A stretch of 30,706 bases of DNA from the IMG/VR virus record IMGVR_UViG_3300015202_000035, positions 1-30,706 of that record. One strand, given 5' to 3'. Below, in pieces: positions 16,270-28,294 of the stretch; the stretch's first letter is position 1; every line of letters starts with the position of its first letter. The translations under genes were made by a program, and so were the position numbers. This stretch comes from a virus. A model generated the notes under the pieces. It was not told the DNA's origin. It did not search any database and was given only the letters and a program-made list of their open reading frames with translations.

Positions 16270-16420
16270 GTAATCAACCCCGCCCTAAAGGGCGGAGCTT
16301 TGCAGATCAGATCCATGGCTCACAACCACTTCAACCCTGTCCGCGTTTGGCCTGATTACGATGGCCCTGCTAGCAATTATGCTAGCAGCGTTGGCGTCGG
16401 CGTCCGCGCTGTGTCCACAC
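16270..16420 (-). ncRNA. predicted omega RNA (TnpB guide RNA scaffold), approximate limits
   Basis: In studied IS200/IS605 elements the TnpB guide RNA comes from the 3' end of tnpB and the right end, and the guide is the flanking sequence just past the element. By that rule, an RNA on the - strand would cover the last part of tnpB plus the right-end hairpin and continue into bases below about 16270, the end of the LamG fusion gene. The hairpin is seen; RNA limits and activity are inferred from the family. Confidence 0.4.
16280..16295 (-). repeat. right-end hairpin of the tnpB element
   Basis: CCGCCC and GGGCGG form a 6-bp stem around a 4-base loop. The tnpB stop codon, TAG at 16285-16287, overlaps the loop, so the gene runs right into the end of the element. 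Confidence 0.85.
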
Positions 16421-17427
16421 GCAAGGCAAGCGAAACGGTCGCGAGTCTTGCGGTTGGCCTTCTCGATGTGTCCGCAAACGCGGCATTCTCGAGAAGTATT
16501 TCGCGGGTCGACGAAACAGACTGGAACCCCAGCGCGCTTGGCCTTGTATCCGATCTTGCTTTGCAAGTCGGCGAAAGCCCAAGAGTGCAAGGAGCGTCGT
16601 TGCGACCGGGAAGCCCTTATCCGAGCGCGGATGCCATCGAGTTTTTCGAGAGCGATACCGCGTCCGGTGCGTTCGGCAGCAACAACAATCTGTTTGGAAA
16701 TAACGTGATTCACATGCGAAGCGAAACGGGTCTCTTTGCGGCTGCGCTTCTTGAGCAAGCGTTTGGCGCTTTTGGTTCCCTTGGCCTGGAGCTTCTTGCG
16801 AAGCCGAAAGGCTCTGCCTCGCAAAGCGTTAAGGTGCGTTCCGCTGAAGTTCTGCCCGTCACTGGTTGTGGCGATGTTCACGATACCGACATCAACCCCG
16901 AGCCAGTCAAGAACCTTGCGCTCCTCTGTGTCAGGCACATCGACGGTGACGAAAAGGTAGAACTTGCGATCGCGCAAGACGAGGTCGGTCTCGCCGCGGT
17001 CGTACTTGAGGAGCGCTCGCTGATGGTCGCCACAGACAAATGGGATGCGCTGGCGGCCGGCAACGGTCCAGATGTTGGCAGACTCGTCCCGCCACGACAG
17101 GATACGAGCGTCGTACGAGATGGCCCCGAGCGGGCGAAACGTGCGGCGAGTAAGCCTGTCGAGCTTGTAGGAGTCGGCGACCTTGGCGATGCAGCGCACG
17201 ATGACTTGCGAGGACAGGTCAGCGAACTCGGCGCGAGTGTCGTGGTAGGCGAGCTTGTGAAGAGCGAACTGCCGAAAGGTTTTCTCCTCCCAAGCGCGAT
17301 CCGAAATCCAGTTACACGCAGCGTTCGCACGGCGAAGCGTGGCGGTCAGCGCGGCGGCTTGTTCAGGCGTCGGCTTGAGCTGGATCTGAACGACAAGCTT
17401 CACAACCCGAAAGGTAACATCTTCCAT
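16285..17427 (-). CDS. tnpB: TnpB, RNA-guided DNA endonuclease
   Basis: The 380-residue protein belongs to the TnpB family, ancestors of Cas12 nucleases, which use a guide RNA from the element's right end to cut DNA next to a short motif and thereby help keep the element at its site. The RuvC-like active site looks complete: Asp179 (LGVDVGIVN), Glu261 (IALEKLDGIR) and Asp344 in the DADANAA block. A zinc finger with Cys315, Cys318, Cys334 and Cys337 lies between the second and third motifs, and the N-terminus begins with the usual VKLVVQIQLKPTPEQ strand. Start is uncertain: ATG at 17427 is used, but GTG at 17403 fits the usual family N-terminus; the same frame is open further upstream through the left-end hairpin. 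The gene is antisense to the surrounding operon. A long + strand open frame covering this region is its shadow. Confidence 0.95.
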   Translation of the reverse strand: MEDVTFRVVKLVVQIQLKPTPEQAAALTATLRRANAACNWISDRAWEEKTFRQFALHKLAYHDTRAEFADLSSQVIVRCIAKVADSYKLDRLTRRTFRPLGAISYDARILSWRDESANIWTVAGRQRIPFVCGDHQRALLKYDRGETDLVLRDRKFYLFVTVDVPDTEERKVLDWLGVDVGIVNIATTSDGQNFSGTHLNALRGRAFRLRKKLQAKGTKSAKRLLKKRSRKETRFASHVNHVISKQIVVAAERTGRGIALEKLDGIRARIRASRSQRRSLHSWAFADLQSKIGYKAKRAGVPVCFVDPRNTSRECRVCGHIEKANRKTRDRFACLACGHSADADANAASIIASRAIVIRPNADRVEVVVSHGSDLQSSAL

Positions 17428-17462
17428 GCTTGAAGCAAACCGACCCGGAGCAAGGCTCCTCA

Positions 17463-17478
17463 CCGGCCTAAAGGCCGG
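17463..17478 (-). repeat. left-end hairpin of the tnpB element
   Basis: CCGGCC and GGCCGG form a 6-bp stem with the same 4-base loop as the right-end hairpin. It lies 36 bases upstream of the tnpB ATG. The ribosome-binding site of the next phage gene (AGGAGA, 17491-17496) begins a few bases outside it, so insertion kept that gene's start signal. Confidence 0.8.
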
Positions 17479-17502
17479 GGTTTCAGACCCAGGAGAAATT
17501 CG

Positions 17503-17808
17503 ATGAAACTCAAAGTTCTTGCACGCGGTACTGCATCGGTTCCGCATCTCGAAGCTATGGACGCGGGCGTGCGTCGATTCGTCGGCCGCCGCCTCGATAT
17601 GGCCGTGGGCGTCGACGGCGGATTTGTTCCGCTCGATGTGCCCGAGGAAGTGGCCGACCGAGCCGAGTACCGACAGCACATCAAAGAGTGCGACCTATGG
17701 GCCGCCGACGAAGCGACGGCTGCCGTGTGCAACGTGAAGTTCGATCCGCATTTCGGCGAAGCGCACAAGCCCGAAGCGCACGAAGACTCTGCCACCCACG
17801 ACCACTGA
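17503..17808 (+). CDS. small protein preceding the tail sheath gene
   Basis: A 101-residue protein with MKLKVLARGTASVP at the start and an acidic His-rich tail (last 20 residues). In Mu-like phages a small protein (gp38, DUF2635) occupies this place before the sheath and also starts with MKxK and a mention of a 'VP' strand and a later W; this one shares that general layout but the match is weak. An AGGAGA ribosome-binding site precedes the ATG. Because the tnpB element lies directly upstream, its transcription from the upstream genes must cross the element. Confidence 0.72.
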   Translation: MKLKVLARGTASVPHLEAMDAGVRRFVGRRLDMAVGVDGGFVPLDVPEEVADRAEYRQHIKECDLWAADEATAAVCNVKFDPHFGEAHKPEAHEDSATHDH

Positions 17809-17864: not shown

Positions 17865-19448
17865 ATGCCCGCATCAATCGCCCTCACCGGGCTAGCCGCG
17901 TCTGACGCCGTACCCGGCAACTATGTCGAGATCAACTTCGCCCAAGGCGCCGCGTCTTTGGGCACGGCAATCTACGCGATTCTGTTGCTCGGCAATCGGA
18001 CTGCCGCCGCCAGCGCAACGCCTGACGTAGTCGTCTATGGCCCCGGCGCGAACTCGCCGCTGCCACTCGCCACGACCTCGGACATGATCGCGCTTGGCGG
18101 GCAGGGAGGCGAAGTGCATCGCATGTGGCGACGCGTCACCAACATCAACACCGCCACGCCCGTCTATGCGTGCTTCGTCACCGAGTCTGTCGGCGCGGCT
18201 GCGATACTCGCCGTTACGTTTGTCGCTACCGCCGGAGCCAACGCCACCGCGCGTTGCTACATCGGCGACGAGTTCGTCGACACCGCAATCACCAACGGCG
18301 ACCTCATCGGCGCCATCGCCACCAACGTAGCCGCGAGCATCAACGGCAAGCTGGACTGGGCCGTCACTGCAGCCGCGACGCTCGGCGTAGTCACCGTCAC
18401 GTCGAAGCAAAAAGGCCTCCGCGGCAACTGGCTCCGCGGCTCGTGCGTGATCCTCGGTAGCAGCCTCGTCGCCACCACCGTCACGCCCATCGCGCAATCG
18501 TTCTTCACGGGCGGCACAACGGCAGACTCGAACGTTGCGGCCCTCGCGACCATCCTTCCCAGCCGATACTATTATATCGTCAGCGCCGCCGAAGACGCGA
18601 CGCAGCTCGGCGCGGTAGCCTCGCAGGTCAACACGCAAGCACTGCCCACGTCGGGCATTCGTCAGCGGGCCATCGGCGCAAGCATCGACACCAGCGGCAG
18701 CGCCACCACCATCGCCACCGGCATCAACAACGCGCGGTGTGAAATCACGTGGATGCAAAACGCCGACTGGACGCCGAGTGAGCTCGCCGCCAACGCCGCG
18801 GCCATCTACGCCCTCGGCGAAGCGTCGACGACCATCCGAGTCAACTACGACGGCTACGGCAACGACCCGCAGTCCCAGGCGACGTGGAAGGTCCCCTATC
18901 CCCGCAGCGGCACCGCGCCCACGCGCTCCACGATCAAAGCCGCACTCAACAACGGCCTGTCCCCCATCGCCATCAACGCGAACGGCTCGACGTACCTCGT
19001 CAGCCGCATCACGACGCGCTCGCTTTCCGGCTCGAACAACGATTACCGGATCCGAGACTCGCACAAAGTCAGCGTCTGCGACTTCTACGCGGACGCCCTC
19101 ATGAACAAGTTCGCGTTGCAATTCAGCGGCAAAAAGATTGCGCCCGACCCCGTGCCCGGTCAGCGCATCCCCGGCTCTGACGTTGTGACTCCCCGAATCC
19201 TCAAAGCGGCAGTCAACAAGCTCACGAGCGACTACGGCGACAAGTTCCTACTGCAGAACCCCGAGGCGATCCAAGCGAACACGCTGGTCATCATCGAGGC
19301 AAGCCCGACGACTCGCATGAGTTGCAAAATCCCGCTGCAAACGGTCGACCTGCTCCATCAAACCGCGACCAGCATCGACCAGGTGGCTGCGGTGTTGCTC
19401 GCAATCGGAGCCGCGTTCGCGGCCTTCGGGCATCACTTCTTCCTGTAA
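17865..19448 (+). CDS. contractile tail sheath protein (Mu L-like)
   Basis: The 527-residue protein forms the contractile outer sheath of the tail. The opening VPGNYVEINFAQG and AILLLGNR segments match the N-terminus of Mu-type sheath proteins, and the middle has the expected variable domain rich in Ala, Thr and Val. Towards the end, LVSRITTRS with YRIRDSHKVSVCDFYADAL (about residues 377-412, shown in parts) is the conserved C-terminal sheath region. A GGAG ribosome-binding site lies just before the ATG. The presence of this gene with the tube and wedge genes shows a myovirus-type tail. Confidence 0.93.
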   Translation: MPASIALTGLAASDAVPGNYVEINFAQGAASLGTAIYAILLLGNRTAAASATPDVVVYGPGANSPLPLATTSDMIALGGQGGEVHRMWRRVTNINTATPVYACFVTESVGAAAILAVTFVATAGANATARCYIGDEFVDTAITNGDLIGAIATNVAASINGKLDWAVTAAATLGVVTVTSKQKGLRGNWLRGSCVILGSSLVATTVTPIAQSFFTGGTTADSNVAALATILPSRYYYIVSAAEDATQLGAVASQVNTQALPTSGIRQRAIGASIDTSGSATTIATGINNARCEITWMQNADWTPSELAANAAAIYALGEASTTIRVNYDGYGNDPQSQATWKVPYPRSGTAPTRSTIKAALNNGLSPIAINANGSTYLVSRITTRSLSGSNNDYRIRDSHKVSVCDFYADALMNKFALQFSGKKIAPDPVPGQRIPGSDVVTPRILKAAVNKLTSDYGDKFLLQNPEAIQANTLVIIEASPTTRMSCKIPLQTVDLLHQTATSIDQVAAVLLAIGAAFAAFGHHFFL

Positions 19449-22828: not shown

Positions 22829-23746
22829 ATGCCCACAGACCTGTTCTCCCAGCTGCTCGAACTCAAGTGGCGCGCCACCTCTTTCCCTTTTGTCTCGTTC
22901 AACACAACGCTGCAGCACGACCAAGCTCAGCACAAGTGGCCCGACCGCGACGGCGCGCACGTCGAGGCTACCGGCCGCCAGCCCCTCGTGCACCGTGCCG
23001 TTATCCCGTTCCGCAACGCCGTAGGGCGGGGCCCGGGCGAGACCTGGGGCATTCTCTACCCCGACGGCTTCCGCGCGTTCCTGGTGGCGTTTAGCGACCG
23101 CACAAGCGGGCAGCTGCAACACCCCGAGCTCGGGCCGATTACCGCGAAGCCCACCACCATGTCCGCTGACTGGGCCGCGGGCACTCGTGACGGGGTGAAC
23201 GTCACGGCGTCGTGGATCGAGTCGTACGACGAAGACGCGCAATATAACGACACGCTCGCGAGGCCCTCGCACATCGCCGCGGTCTACATCGAGGCGCTCG
23301 ACCTCGATTCGCAAGTCACGCAGTACGCCAGCCCGCTCGTGACAAACAACGCGCAAGAGCCGCTTACGTTCACGCAGGCCATCCAGAAAATCACATCGAT
23401 TTTCGATCAGGTCTCGCTCGTGAGCAAACAGGCCGGCGGGTACATCGACCACGTTCTCTACCGCGTGCAGGCCCTGCAGGATTCGGTAGCGCGGGCGAAG
23501 GACAACACCGCGTGGCCGATTATCAACACATGCGAGCGGCTCAAGGCCTCGCTGTACGGCCTCAAGCAACAGCAGCTCACGCTGCAAAAAGACATCACGC
23601 TTTTCGTCGTGCCCAAAGACCAAACCATTGCGGCCATCGCGGCCACGCTTCGGGCGAATGTCTCCGATATCGTGAAGCTCAACCCGTTGCTCGCCGGCTC
23701 GCCCGTGGTGCCGCGCCTTAGCGTCGTTCGGTACTACGCCTCGTGA
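22829..23746 (+). CDS. Mu N-like baseplate/DNA circularisation protein with LysM-like end
   Basis: The 305-residue product has an N-terminal region (about 20-75) with QHKWPDRDGAHVEATGRQ, the pattern of the DNA circulation N-terminal domain of Mu gpN. A helical middle is followed by a LysM-like segment at about 255-300, FVVPKDQTIAAIAATLRANVSDIVKLNP (in parts), that could bind peptidoglycan. In Mu, gpN lies after the tape measure and links the tail tube to the baseplate hub; the same order is seen here. Its stop overlaps the next gene's GTG by four bases. Confidence 0.85.
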   Translation: MPTDLFSQLLELKWRATSFPFVSFNTTLQHDQAQHKWPDRDGAHVEATGRQPLVHRAVIPFRNAVGRGPGETWGILYPDGFRAFLVAFSDRTSGQLQHPELGPITAKPTTMSADWAAGTRDGVNVTASWIESYDEDAQYNDTLARPSHIAAVYIEALDLDSQVTQYASPLVTNNAQEPLTFTQAIQKITSIFDQVSLVSKQAGGYIDHVLYRVQALQDSVARAKDNTAWPIINTCERLKASLYGLKQQQLTLQKDITLFVVPKDQTIAAIAATLRANVSDIVKLNPLLAGSPVVPRLSVVRYYAS

Positions 23747-25044
23747 CACTAGGGCAGGTGACCAGGCCCGAAGACGACGGCATTGAGCTGCAGCTACGCG
23801 ATCAAGCGGGCGTCATCGTCCACGTCATCAACACGTGGAAACAATACTCATTCAATTCGAACTTTCTCACGCCGACTGATGGATGGTCGTTCACGCTCGG
23901 CGACGAAGTTGTTAAGCAAAGCCTGCTCGAAGGCATTTTCTGCGGCCAGCGCGTGACCTTGAGCATCAACGGCCACATCCAAGGCGACGGCTACATCGAT
24001 AAAGTTGTGATTGGCGGCAACCGCTCGACGGGCACCACGGTCACGATTGAGGGCCGCGATAGATTGGCGCCCGTCGTTGACGGAAACATGGATCCGCAGG
24101 CCACGAAGTTCACGGCCGGGCAGACGCTTTTCGATGTGCTCTATGCGGTGTTTTCTCAGTACGGGTGGACCGACGCGAACACGCAATATCTAATCAGCAA
24201 CGAGGCGAACCGGAACGTCATTAGCGGCGCCGTTCGCGGTGTGCCGGCTACCAAAAAGGACAAGCCGCTCAAGTCGTTTCAGATCCATCAGCTCAAGCCG
24301 TATCCGGCCGAGGGCTCGTTTTCTTTTGCGTCGCGCATCGCGCAGCGTTTCGGGCTGTGGATCTGGCTCTCAGCTGAGGGCAACTCGATTATCGTCAGCA
24401 AGCCCGACTTCGGCCAAGAAGCTCGCTACCACATCCGCCACAAGACGGGCGCGAGCGGCTTCATCAACAACGTGCTCGAGTATCACGTCGAGCGGCACGC
24501 GGGTGAACAGCCGTCCGTCATCATTGCTACCGGTTCCGGTGGCGGCGGCGAATACGGACGCGGCGGACTCAAGGTCGCTTTCCCTAATATGCTGACCGGC
24601 ATCACGGCGCTAGGTGCGCTGAGGCCAGAAGTACAAGCGGTACTCACGGCGAACTCGGACGCGAAAATTGTACAGCCAACTGTCGAGGCGTTGCGGGCGC
24701 TCTCGACGCGCGCACTCACGGGCGTCAACGCGAACTTCTTTGGCGCGCAGCATCGGCCCATGTTCCTGCACGACGACGAAAGCAAGACAATCGACCAACT
24801 CGAGGCGTTCTGCCGGCGTGAGATGGCGCTCAAGCAGCGAGGCGCGCTCGTTGCGCACTACACGCTCGAGGGCCACGAAAACAACGGATACCCGTGGTGC
24901 GTCGACACCATTGTCGAGGTCGACGACGACGTGGCGGGCATTCACGGAAATATGTGGGTCATGTCGCGCACGTTCACCAAGGACCGGATGAGCGGCACGC
25001 GCACGCAGGTGGAATTACTACTGCCCTACACCATGGAGTTTTGA
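23743..25044 (+). CDS. baseplate hub protein (Mu P / phage late control D-like)
   Basis: The 433-residue protein is the hub of the baseplate on which the spike sits. Typical elements of the Mu P and P2 D family are present: an N-terminal tube-like beta domain (QYSFNSNFLTPTDGWSFTLGD), TVTIEGRDRLAPVVDG at about 102-117, and a long C-terminal part with LKSFQIHQLKPYPAEGSFSF and a conserved ending LEGHENNGYPWCVDTIVEV. It starts with GTG in a GTGA overlap and its stop overlaps the start of the spike gene. Confidence 0.9.
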   Translation: MTLGQVTRPEDDGIELQLRDQAGVIVHVINTWKQYSFNSNFLTPTDGWSFTLGDEVVKQSLLEGIFCGQRVTLSINGHIQGDGYIDKVVIGGNRSTGTTVTIEGRDRLAPVVDGNMDPQATKFTAGQTLFDVLYAVFSQYGWTDANTQYLISNEANRNVISGAVRGVPATKKDKPLKSFQIHQLKPYPAEGSFSFASRIAQRFGLWIWLSAEGNSIIVSKPDFGQEARYHIRHKTGASGFINNVLEYHVERHAGEQPSVIIATGSGGGGEYGRGGLKVAFPNMLTGITALGALRPEVQAVLTANSDAKIVQPTVEALRALSTRALTGVNANFFGAQHRPMFLHDDESKTIDQLEAFCRREMALKQRGALVAHYTLEGHENNGYPWCVDTIVEVDDDVAGIHGNMWVMSRTFTKDRMSGTRTQVELLLPYTMEF

Positions 25045-25706
25045 TGCCCGCCAAACTCTCCAGCCTGTTCGACATCGGCGTCGATATCCTCAAAACGGTC
25101 CTGTCCAAAACCACCGGGCTTATCACCGCGCAAACCGGCGACGTCGTAAGCAAGACCGTGAACGCCGACGGCGCCGAATGGTGGCAACACGTGGGCTTCG
25201 TCTCTCGCCCCGCAGTTCCAACAGCAGGCCAAGCGGCGTGTCAAGGCATCGCGATCAAGCGCAGTGATAACGACGCCATCATCGCCACCCGCGACGCACG
25301 CGGCTCGACCATCTACGGCTCACTCGCAGACGGCGAATCCTGCATCTACTCGCCCGGCGCACAGGGCCGCGTACTGCTCAAAGCAGACGGCAGCGTCAAC
25401 ATCTACACGACCAGCGACAACACGGGCTCAGGGCAAAGCGTAATCCTCACCGTCGCGCCCGGCGCCGTGTCGATTGGCACGCCATGGGGCGCGCTCGTTA
25501 TGGATAGCAGCGGCATCCGAATGGGCGCTGGCTCGGCCGGCATTCAGGTTGGAGCCGATGGCACCGTGACGATCATCGGCACCAAAATCGCTCTCAACGG
25601 CGGAAGCGTCTCCCTTGGCGCAACAGCCTCGCCCACCAACACCATTCTATTCGGCCCGTCCGGGCTCGCAGCCATTCCTTCCACCTCGGTCTTTGTGAGC
25701 CTATGA
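25044..25706 (+). CDS. baseplate spike protein (Mu gp45-like)
   Basis: The 220-residue product starts at the ATG that overlaps the hub stop. Residues about 45-85 (WWQHVGFVSRPAVPTAGQAACQ) match the OB-fold part of Mu gp45-type spikes, and the C-terminal half shows regularly spaced short strands (GSVNIYTTS, GAVSIGTPWG, GIRMGAGS, GTVTIIGTK, GSVSLGAT) as in a beta-helix. The His-x-His iron-binding tip seen in P2 gpV and Mu gp45 is not visible at this C-terminus, so another protein may form the tip. Confidence 0.87.
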   Translation: MPAKLSSLFDIGVDILKTVLSKTTGLITAQTGDVVSKTVNADGAEWWQHVGFVSRPAVPTAGQAACQGIAIKRSDNDAIIATRDARGSTIYGSLADGESCIYSPGAQGRVLLKADGSVNIYTTSDNTGSGQSVILTVAPGAVSIGTPWGALVMDSSGIRMGAGSAGIQVGADGTVTIIGTKIALNGGSVSLGATASPTNTILFGPSGLAAIPSTSVFVSL

Positions 25707-25987
25707 GTATCGCAGCCGGAACAGTGTCCGTTGACGCGAGCGGTAACGTCACGGGCTCGGGCATGTCGCTCGCAATCTACAACGCGGTCGTTGCTCAGTT
25801 GCTATCGACGCTGCCGGCGAGTGCAGGCGCGACGTCGATCATCGCGTGGAAGCAGGGCCAAGCGTCGCTAGCCGCCGCCATTGCCGCAGGCATCGTGCCC
25901 TACCTCACGACAAACGTGGTGATTGCCCCCGGCACGTTTACCGACTCCGCACTCAGCACGATTACGGGCTTCGGCCGGTTCACCTAG
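25703..25987 (+). CDS. small spike-adjacent protein
   Basis: A 94-residue protein with no family that I recognise. It starts with beta-type SIAAGTVSVDASGNVTGSG and continues with a helical region (YNAVVAQLLSTLPA) and a Gly/Thr-rich end. It overlaps the spike gene by four bases and its stop shares a base with the next start. Mu has no gene here, so it is an addition to the Mu-like order, probably a spike or hub accessory. Confidence 0.68.
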   Translation: MSIAAGTVSVDASGNVTGSGMSLAIYNAVVAQLLSTLPASAGATSIIAWKQGQASLAAAIAAGIVPYLTTNVVIAPGTFTDSALSTITGFGRFT

Positions 25988-26310
25988 TGGGTTGCAACTT
26001 CGCTTTCCCCACGCTGACTATCCCGCCGATCCTAATCCCGCTGCCCTCGTTGCCGACGTTGCCGACACTCAAACTGTCGGTGCCGATGCCGGATATTTCG
26101 TTCCCGTCGATTCCGCCTTTGGTGATTCCGCCGATCCTAATCCCGCTGCCTTCGCTGCCGAAACTCCCCACGCTGAATCTCTCGGTACCGATGCCTGACA
26201 TCAGGTTCCCGGCGCTTCCGCCTTTGGTGATTCTGCCCATTCTAATCCCACTGCCTTCGCTCCCGACGCTGCCGACGCTCACGCTCGGTATGCCGCCCTG
26301 TCCACTCTGA
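25987..26310 (+). CDS. proline-rich repeat protein next to the baseplate spike
   Basis: A 107-residue protein starting at a GTG that shares a base with the previous stop (TAGTG). It is made of a 35-residue unit present about 2.7 times, each starting PPILIPLPSLP (the third LPILIPLPSLP) and continuing with LPTLxLSVPMPDI. Proline occurs every two to four residues, alternating with Leu, Ile and Val; there are almost no charges. Cys3 and Cys105 bracket the repeats. The nucleotide period is exactly 105 bases, marked by CTAATCCC at 26032, 26137 and 26242. It is followed by the wedge gene after seven bases. The frame is strongly supported by the repeats. Likely an extended or stacked rod linked to the spike; the function is not known. 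Confidence 0.8.
   Translation: MGCNFAFPTLTIPPILIPLPSLPTLPTLKLSVPMPDISFPSIPPLVIPPILIPLPSLPKLPTLNLSVPMPDIRFPALPPLVILPILIPLPSLPTLPTLTLGMPPCPL
26021..26295 (+). repeat. 105-base tandem repeats encoding the proline-rich protein
   Basis: Two full copies and one partial copy of a 105-base unit, with the same CTAATCCC core at 26032, 26137 and 26242. Differences fall mainly at third codon positions, so the repeats arose by duplication and then diverged under protein-level constraint. Confidence 0.85.
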
Positions 26311-26317
26311 GGTTCCC

Positions 26318-26782
26318 ATGAGTCTAGGTGCAGGCTTTTCGGCTGCTGGCTTTTCGCCTGGCGGTCTCGGTGACGTGGATATCGCGCCCGTACCTACGGC
26401 CAATCTTCTAATCGATGCCGACAACGGCAGGCAACAGAACGCGCGCAAAATCAACCCCTACACAAAGCAGTACGTGACCGACGCTACGGGCGCGCTGCAA
26501 GGCATGAGCGGCATCTCGCAGATGGTGCTCCTGCGATTGCTCACGGTGCGCAACTCGAGTGCGCTGGCGAACTTCGGCCGCGCGTCATCGCCCAAAGTTG
26601 TGAGCGCCAACACGCTCCGACAGATCCAATCAGACGTGAACCAGGCCCTCGCCGATTTGGTGCTCGCCAAGCTCGTCGTCGTCAACAGCGTCTCGACGAT
26701 CAACCCATCGCCTACCCAAGTCGATTGCTTCGTTCTCTGGACGGATCTGACGACGGGTATCGAACAGTCCACCGCGTTCTAA
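26318..26782 (+). CDS. baseplate wedge protein (Mu gp46 / gp25-like)
   Basis: A 154-residue protein in the Mu gp46 place, before the J-like gene. It is helical with a beta C-terminus (LVVVNSVSTINPSPTQVDCFVLWTDL, residues about 120-145), which fits the gp25/gp46-type wedge protein that starts sheath assembly. GAGG lies before the ATG. The sequence match alone is moderate; the gene order supports it. Confidence 0.8.
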   Translation: MSLGAGFSAAGFSPGGLGDVDIAPVPTANLLIDADNGRQQNARKINPYTKQYVTDATGALQGMSGISQMVLLRLLTVRNSSALANFGRASSPKVVSANTLRQIQSDVNQALADLVLAKLVVVNSVSTINPSPTQVDCFVLWTDLTTGIEQSTAF

Positions 26783-26791
26783 GGGGCCACA

Positions 26792-28294
26792 TTGACCATC
26801 AACATAAAGGCCTACACCACCAAGGATTCTAGCGTCATTCGTGACGACATCCTACGCACGCTGCGCAACGGGATGGTCGCTAACGGTATCGCGAATCCCC
26901 AGGTAGGCCCGGGCTCGGACTACTACCTCAAGGCTCAGGCCATCGCCAACGAGCTCGCCGTGCTCGCCGTCAACACGCAAATCAAAGCGGACGCGCAGAT
27001 GCCTGACACGGCAGTGGGCACCGAATTGGATCGTCTTCTCGCGCAGCAAGGCCTAGCGCGTCGCGCCGCCTCCAACTCGACGGGCGGGTTCACGCTCGAC
27101 TGTTCGGCGACGACGCTCGTATCCGTCGGCGCTCAAATGGTGGACGCCGCCGGCCTTCGCTATCAGGTCTCGGTAGGCGGCACCTACGCCGCTGGATCGC
27201 GCGTTCCGCTGATCAGTATCGACACCGGCAAGGCGACCAACCACGCCGCAGGCGACGCCCTCAAGTGGGTTGCTGCGCCGGCGTTCTGCAACCAAACTCA
27301 GATCATTGCGAGCGGCGGTTTGACGGGCGGCGCTGACGTCGAGAACGACGACACCGCGCGAGCTCGGCTCTACACGCGCATGCAGAATCCACCGGGCTCC
27401 GGCAACTGGCCGCAGGTCAACGGCTTCGCCGAAGCCTCCACACCCATCGTGCAAAAAGGCTTTTGCTACCCTGGCGTCAACGGCCCGTCGACGTGCCACG
27501 TTGCAGTTGTTGGCTACGCCACCACGGTCGCCAAAAATCGCGACGTCGATAGCGTGACCATGGCCGGGCTCGTCACGCCGTACATCCTCGGGCAGATGCC
27601 CGAGTACGTCGAGACGATCGTCACGACGGTCAGCAACCAGCCCACCGATATCGGCATCAACCTCGCGCTACCCGCAGCGCCTACAGCCTCGCCCGCAGGC
27701 CCCGGCGGCGGCTGGCTTGATGGTGCGCCATGGCCGACCGTCTACTCGGTCACCAACGTTGCGAACGTCACCGCCGTGACGTCGAGCACAGTGTTCACGC
27801 TGAACGCGGGCAGCCTTCCCACGGTCGGCGTCTCGCGGATTGCGTTCCTCGATCCAACCAACTGGACGACCTACTACGCAAAGGTGCTCTCCTACACCGG
27901 CGCGCTGCCGTCGTTGACGATCACAATCGACCAACCGTTTCCGAATATCGCCGCGGCGCTCGCACTCGGCGGCACGGGTCCGGTGATTTTCCCGCAGGCC
28001 ACCAACACCGCAACCTACGTCGCGGCTCTACTCGCCGCCATGGCGCTCATGGGCCCGGGTGAGAAGACATCAAACGGCGCCATCCTCGTGCGCGGCTATC
28101 GCCACCCGCTACCCACCCAAGGCTGGAACAACAAACTCAACGCGTCGATTCTACGCGCCATCACCAACGCGGGAAACGAAGTGCTCGACGTCGCCTACTC
28201 GCTCGGCAGTGGCACGACTCCCACCGTGCCCGGCTCCGTCGCCTCGCCACCCGCAATCATCACGCCGAGACACCTCGGCTTTTACGCAATGTGA
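26792..28294 (+). CDS. baseplate J-like protein (Mu gp47)
   Basis: The 500-residue protein is the main wedge component of simple contractile baseplates. The N-terminus (residues 20-90) with DILRTLRNGMVANGI and MPDTAVGTELDRLLAQQGL is the classic J/gp47 opening, and ENDDTARARLYTRMQNPPGSGNWPQV in the middle (about 185-210, in parts) is its best-conserved block. Start is TTG at 26792 behind AAGGGG. It is complete and larger than P2 J, similar to Mu gp47 with an inserted domain near 290-400. Confidence 0.9.
   Translation: MTINIKAYTTKDSSVIRDDILRTLRNGMVANGIANPQVGPGSDYYLKAQAIANELAVLAVNTQIKADAQMPDTAVGTELDRLLAQQGLARRAASNSTGGFTLDCSATTLVSVGAQMVDAAGLRYQVSVGGTYAAGSRVPLISIDTGKATNHAAGDALKWVAAPAFCNQTQIIASGGLTGGADVENDDTARARLYTRMQNPPGSGNWPQVNGFAEASTPIVQKGFCYPGVNGPSTCHVAVVGYATTVAKNRDVDSVTMAGLVTPYILGQMPEYVETIVTTVSNQPTDIGINLALPAAPTASPAGPGGGWLDGAPWPTVYSVTNVANVTAVTSSTVFTLNAGSLPTVGVSRIAFLDPTNWTTYYAKVLSYTGALPSLTITIDQPFPNIAAALALGGTGPVIFPQATNTATYVAALLAAMALMGPGEKTSNGAILVRGYRHPLPTQGWNNKLNASILRAITNAGNEVLDVAYSLGSGTTPTVPGSVASPPAIITPRHLGFYAM

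Follow-up and report, generated by a model that had tools for sequence, protein, structure and literature searches.

In phage tails, type VI secretion systems (T6SS), and related injection machines, the tip of the central spike is what first breaks a membrane, and the closest described systems close it in different ways. In P2, phi92, Mu, and Milano, the apex is closed by an HxH-iron arrangement that is made by the spike itself (PMC10715212, PMC10811340, PMC11915804). In T4 (gp5.4) and the T6SS, the apex is closed by a PAAR protein, a separate cap that is pseudo-trimeric (PMC10715212, PMC4576200). Such a cap is a single PAAR chain that sits pseudo-trimerically on a trimeric spike, with P2 and phi92 using the iron-closed apex instead (PMC10715212). 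In addition, the DUF4280 or IglG PAAR-like proteins (PF14107), which are ∼100 amino acids long and have four conserved Cys, have been proposed to cap a VgrG spike (PMC5349215, PMC5014421).

The stretch of DNA analyzed here, which we refer to as the window, is a 30,706-bp IMG/VR virus record. PHROG and Pfam matches place its genes in Mu order: a gp43-like DNA-circulation protein, the gpP hub, the spike-slot gene, Baseplate_J, and a Gp48-like gene, in addition to a tail sheath. All of the features for which coordinates follow, apart from the transposase ORF below, are on the plus strand. The sheath is encoded at 17865-19448 (PHROG 165, E 8e-58), the gpP hub, similar to Mu gp44, at 23743-25044 (PHROG 177, E 3e-32; Pfam GpP-like, E 5e-9), and the Baseplate_J or gp47-like wedge protein at 26792-28294 (Pfam Baseplate_J, E 6e-22; PHROG 6, E 6e-23). 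The central spike, in the Mu gp45 slot (25044-25706, 220 amino acids), and the gp46-like gene in the baseplate wedge 1 position (26318-26782) have no curated family match and were assigned by position and synteny, the former because it follows the hub and the latter because it lies between the slot and gpJ in relatives. By gene content and order (sheath, gpP hub, gpJ, and gp48-like genes), the operon is thus that of a contractile tail with a Mu-like baseplate. Within the structural operon, there is also a TnpB-like transposase ORF on the opposite strand (16285-17679; PHROG 506, E 1e-40).

Between the spike and the gp46-like gene lies the ORF of interest (25987-26310, plus strand), which encodes 107 amino acids, begins with GTG, and ends with TGA. 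An earlier, sequence-only reading of the window had noted a proline-rich repeat protein inserted here, where Mu has no such gene. That contrast holds, given that gp46 directly follows the spike in the Mu-like Klebsiella phage MK388859 and Alteromonadaceae phage KY939598. The slot was also placed correctly, but the gene is not directly beside the spike, because an ORF of 94 amino acids (25703-25987, plus strand) intervenes, and the GTG start overlaps the TAG of this preceding ORF. By eye, the intervening protein resembles small GxG/W proteins that flank the slot in relatives.

Tandem Repeats Finder (TRF) detected an array with a 105-bp period (26023-26281; 81% matches over 2.5 copies), which is by a wide margin the top-scoring TRF array in the window. 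At the protein level, the 35-residue period gives 68% identity, whereas shuffling these residues 2000 times gave at most 35%. The protein consists of three units of ∼35 amino acids: residues 4-38 (25996-26100), residues 39-73 (26101-26205), and a shortened third unit with CPL at its end, residues 74-107 (26206-26307). Thus, the repeat of a PPILIPLPSLP-type unit that was noted earlier is real, but it comprises three units rather than about 2.7 copies. The only Cys are at positions 3 (codon 25993-25995) and 105 (codon 26299-26301, within the CPL), a span of 2.91 periods, and, as had been remarked, the chain is almost uncharged (5 charged residues among 107). Pro makes up 29% of the residues.

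Because BLAST-type searches with the slot protein itself fail, relatives could be reached only through the hub, spike, and gpJ. Accordingly, we gathered loci from IMG/VR by these three proteins and then read the spike-to-gp46 region in each. Proteins of the window's type (class A) were found in this region in 19 contigs, representing 16 distinct sequences. A survey of copy number in relatives, which the sequence-only reading had proposed, found exactly three units in all 16, with a Cys-to-Cys span of 2.86-2.94 periods, and this despite unit lengths that range from 32 (L084) through 34 (L022) and 35 (the window) to 41 residues (L057). Every member has a Cys among its first six residues, and in all 16 the chain terminates at CP[LI] or a few residues beyond it. 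Exactly two Cys and no His were present in each of 15 class A sequences. Composition is far less constant: Pro accounts for 10%-29% of residues, and the lowest-proline member (L057, 2927-3304) nevertheless has three units, along with 27 charged residues. Judged from this sequence, the three-unit architecture outlasts the proline-rich composition.

We consider it somewhat more probable than otherwise that the class A protein is a spike-tip cap, in which one chain places its three units on the trimeric spike and the terminal Cys close a ring. In the proposed arrangement, one chain of three near-identical units per virion would sit atop the blunt end of the spike trimer, with each unit continuing one spike subunit, such that a single polypeptide would imitate three-fold symmetry in what we infer to be a pseudo-three-fold fold. 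The N- and C-terminal Cys would be next to each other and would seal the ring, with a disulfide as the simplest means. Such a cap would replace both the HxH-iron apex of the Mu and P2 type and the separate PAAR (gp5.4) cap, and, at sheath contraction, it may be the part that first meets and pierces the outer membrane. A number of units that stays fixed while unit length drifts fits a single chain on a three-fold axis. In addition, because the first and last Cys occur at nearly equal repeat phase, they would be neighbors in a three-fold arrangement, making ring closure possible.

The same observations bear on the possibility of a homotrimeric rod or needle, in which three chains of three units placed end to end would lengthen the spike and the Cys would link the chains at both ends. 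The spike is itself trimeric, and the shared slot and translational coupling would suit a rod as well. Also, in the 15 sequences, large hydrophobic residues are adjacent 43 times compared with 261 expected and instead alternate, favoring spacings of 2 and 5, whereas Pro favors spacings of 3 and 5. As an argument from composition, this pattern suits extended, strand-like or polyproline-like segments, and thus an elongated shape. However, rods that set a length normally vary in repeat number, and here the units are fixed at three as their length drifts; moreover, the equal repeat phase of the terminal Cys points to closure into a ring and not to two far ends. We therefore regard the rod as unlikely. 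The sequence-only reading had left the choice among a rod, a spike tip or membrane-piercing element, and a spring-like linker. Of these, the spike tip is favored, and the constancy of three units across all 16 members disfavors both the rod and the spring.

Codon comparisons indicate that the units are constrained as protein. The units of the window protein differ at 19, 15, and 34 first, second, and third codon positions, respectively, and the unit-to-unit dN/dS is 0.34. Values of 0.14-0.34 were obtained for nine members, with 0.90 only in L023 and an undefined value for L018, where dS is saturated. The divergence at third positions and the selection on the protein that were claimed for the window are therefore real, but third-position divergence alone does not tell which strand is coding, given that in the window the antisense strand, too, has an open frame. 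It is open there because the sense protein lacks Tyr, His, and Gln. Antisense coding was rejected, as L010, L015, and L018 have interruptions in this frame. No interruption of the sense frame occurs in any member, across GC3 values from 0.19 (L015) to 0.96 (L023).

Within proteins, units 1 and 2 share on average 76% identity and units 2 and 3 share 68%, compared with 44% for equivalent units of different proteins, and for 33 of 45 units the nearest relative is in the same protein. Recent homogenization of the DNA is not the cause of this likeness, because synonymous sites between units have diverged or are saturated in most members (dS is at least 0.8, and often saturated, in 10 of 11). As far as codon comparisons can indicate, it is as protein that the units stay alike, and we infer selection for equal units as the cause.

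These values also weigh on a second alternative, namely that the protein is a membrane-active or disordered accessory peptide that is carried on the spike or close to it and enters the outer membrane on contraction, forming no ordered cap. The window's chain is very hydrophobic as well as almost uncharged, and AlphaFold2 predicts no confident fold (mean pLDDT 44, and also 44 for the low-proline relative L057); neither model gives the cap structural support. A profile search of the PDB returned a single match (E 0.03), to beta strands in apolipoprotein B that bind lipid. This would be in keeping with a membrane peptide, although the match is weak and probably compositional, and we did not accept it as homology. 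On the other side, the strict count of three, the matched unit lengths, and the low dN/dS imply an ordered, symmetric structure, and members with 17 (L027) or 27 (L057) charged residues are poorly suited to insertion. On this evidence, a disordered peptide seems quite improbable to us.

The slot is not always filled by a class A protein. In 11 related loci, the same position holds a shorter four-Cys, Pro-containing protein (class B; MxC...CC...CP) with no visible three-fold repeat. L054 has a short form of 60 amino acids in the slot, and two distant loci (L088 and L090) have Pro-rich slot proteins without a clear repeat, showing that not every slot protein has three-unit symmetry. In nine related loci (L004, L005, L011, L026, L029, L055, L059, L075, and L076), there is no such slot protein. 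One of these, L005, is the nearest gpJ relative of the window, yet lacks it. On the gpJ tree, the slot classes are clustered but interspersed, with at least 10 changes, implying at the level of gene content that the slot has gained, lost, or exchanged its contents over evolution.

Of 28 loci with a slot gene, 27 have its start no more than 13 nt from the stop of the upstream ORF, and ATGA overlaps are frequent. In most of the 28 loci, the upstream ORF is the spike. Exceptions are the window, L021, and L022, in which a small ORF of another kind lies between the spike and the slot gene, and L073 and L084, in which the ORF upstream of the slot gene is not the spike. Tight translational coupling of this sort, together with the absence of the protein from some relatives, might also be expected of an assembly factor, that is, a folding or loading chaperone specific to the spike, co-translated with it and not part of the finished virion. 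We judge this very unlikely: triplicated Pro-rich proteins with terminal Cys would be unusual chaperones, and exchange with the four-Cys type in the same slot resembles replacement of a structural tip.

In Mu gp45, P2 gpV, phi92, and Milano gp27, whose tips have the place on the virion that we propose for the slot protein (the central spike apex), the tip is the spike's own C terminus, with an HxH motif (PMC11915804, PMC10811340, PMC10715212). In the window, by contrast, HxH is missing from the spike, and an additional gene lies downstream. The absence of a visible His-x-His motif from the window spike had been noted before and was borne out, and HxH was likewise absent from all 24 spikes examined that are accompanied by a slot protein. 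It is present in all three of the Mu-like control spikes that have no slot gene. It should be noted that the reverse does not apply within the lineage. We rejected the idea that every relative without a slot gene has HxH, because only two of the nine do (L055 and L059) and the other seven lack it too. In both L055 and L059, the motif is HIH, ∼50 residues before the C terminus of the spike, and by sequence it is a possible HxH-type tip inside the lineage. The spike of this lineage thus seems able to do without both the slot protein and HxH. Loci with neither imply either that such a tip is not indispensable in the lineage or that the spike C terminus does the work there.

The PAAR proteins and T4 gp5.4 (PF05488) provide the closest proposed parallel, as they too are small proteins of contractile systems whose genes accompany the spike gene or lie near it, and in them one chain caps a trimeric spike pseudo-trimerically, with Cys/His-based closure (PMC10715212, PMC4576200). 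The slot protein differs in having no sequence match to PAAR, no PAAR motifs, and no His. Where PAAR has a His/Cys zinc site, the slot protein has two terminal Cys and no His (15 of 15 sequences), and it also displays an overt triplication of a Pro-rich unit of 32-41 amino acids. With the PAAR profile PF05488, none of 41 records scored above the cut-off, many of the contigs being fragments, and the controls were detected. The four-Cys type found in the slot of relatives recalls the four Cys of DUF4280/IglG, and the window protein has only two. PF14107 matched neither slot type, although the genome control was also silent, such that the contig scan alone is weak. By sequence, then, the slot protein is not a member of the PAAR_motif (PF05488) or DUF4280 (PF14107) families. 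Slot-bearing spikes without HxH, in combination with the lack of a PAAR match, favor a cap that would act like PAAR but lie outside the PAAR family.

A broader proposal, which we put forward only tentatively and rate as short of probable, is that there is a third, undescribed solution for sharpening the spike of a contractile tail: a metal-free, pseudo-three-fold cap built from one triplicated Pro-rich chain with an end-to-end disulfide, evolutionarily interchangeable with the four-Cys type. If the cap reading is true, this design would be separate from both the iron-closed apex and the PAAR cap, and it would provide a natural case of a single chain that has evolved to match a trimer. The slot would also offer a route to spike-tip genes that have been overlooked by sequence annotation.

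Searches of curated resources gave no credible relative of the window protein among Pfam, PHROGs, NCBIfam, and PDB profiles. In Pfam, neither the window protein nor the 11 members scanned matched anything beyond weak GLTT repeats, and the four-Cys slot proteins had no match. The NCBIfam and PHROG matches were short and inconsistent among members, and we took them to be chance. Slot proteins found no matches by tblastn against INPHARED or in a direct viral scan, low-complexity masking probably being part of the reason. Hub profiles found no relatives in GTDB species genomes, and a further viral scan added no contigs to those already known. A search of open-access literature found no description of such a protein, although subscription journals may hold one. 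Thus, as far as the open-access literature and curated databases were searched, the family and its architecture are undescribed.

Some other features of these operons were recorded. Adjacent to the slot gene, on either side, are genes for small Trp/GxG proteins, many with internal repeats; the homology of these proteins was judged by eye. In addition to the window (25703-25987), they occur in L018 (8649-9227), L021 (8016-8600), L022 (7929-8501), L023 (8381-8962), L025 (8222-8800), and both L055 and L059 (3302-3517). ORFs that by eye only resemble HNH or GIY-YIG homing endonucleases lie inside the baseplate operons of some relatives (L018, 7239-7655; L008, 13369-13881; L002, 3786-4631). Finally, in contig IMGVR_UViG_3300022886_000001 (L003 and L015), the spike and the slot gene are at opposite contig ends, which suggests that this genome is circular or circularly permuted.
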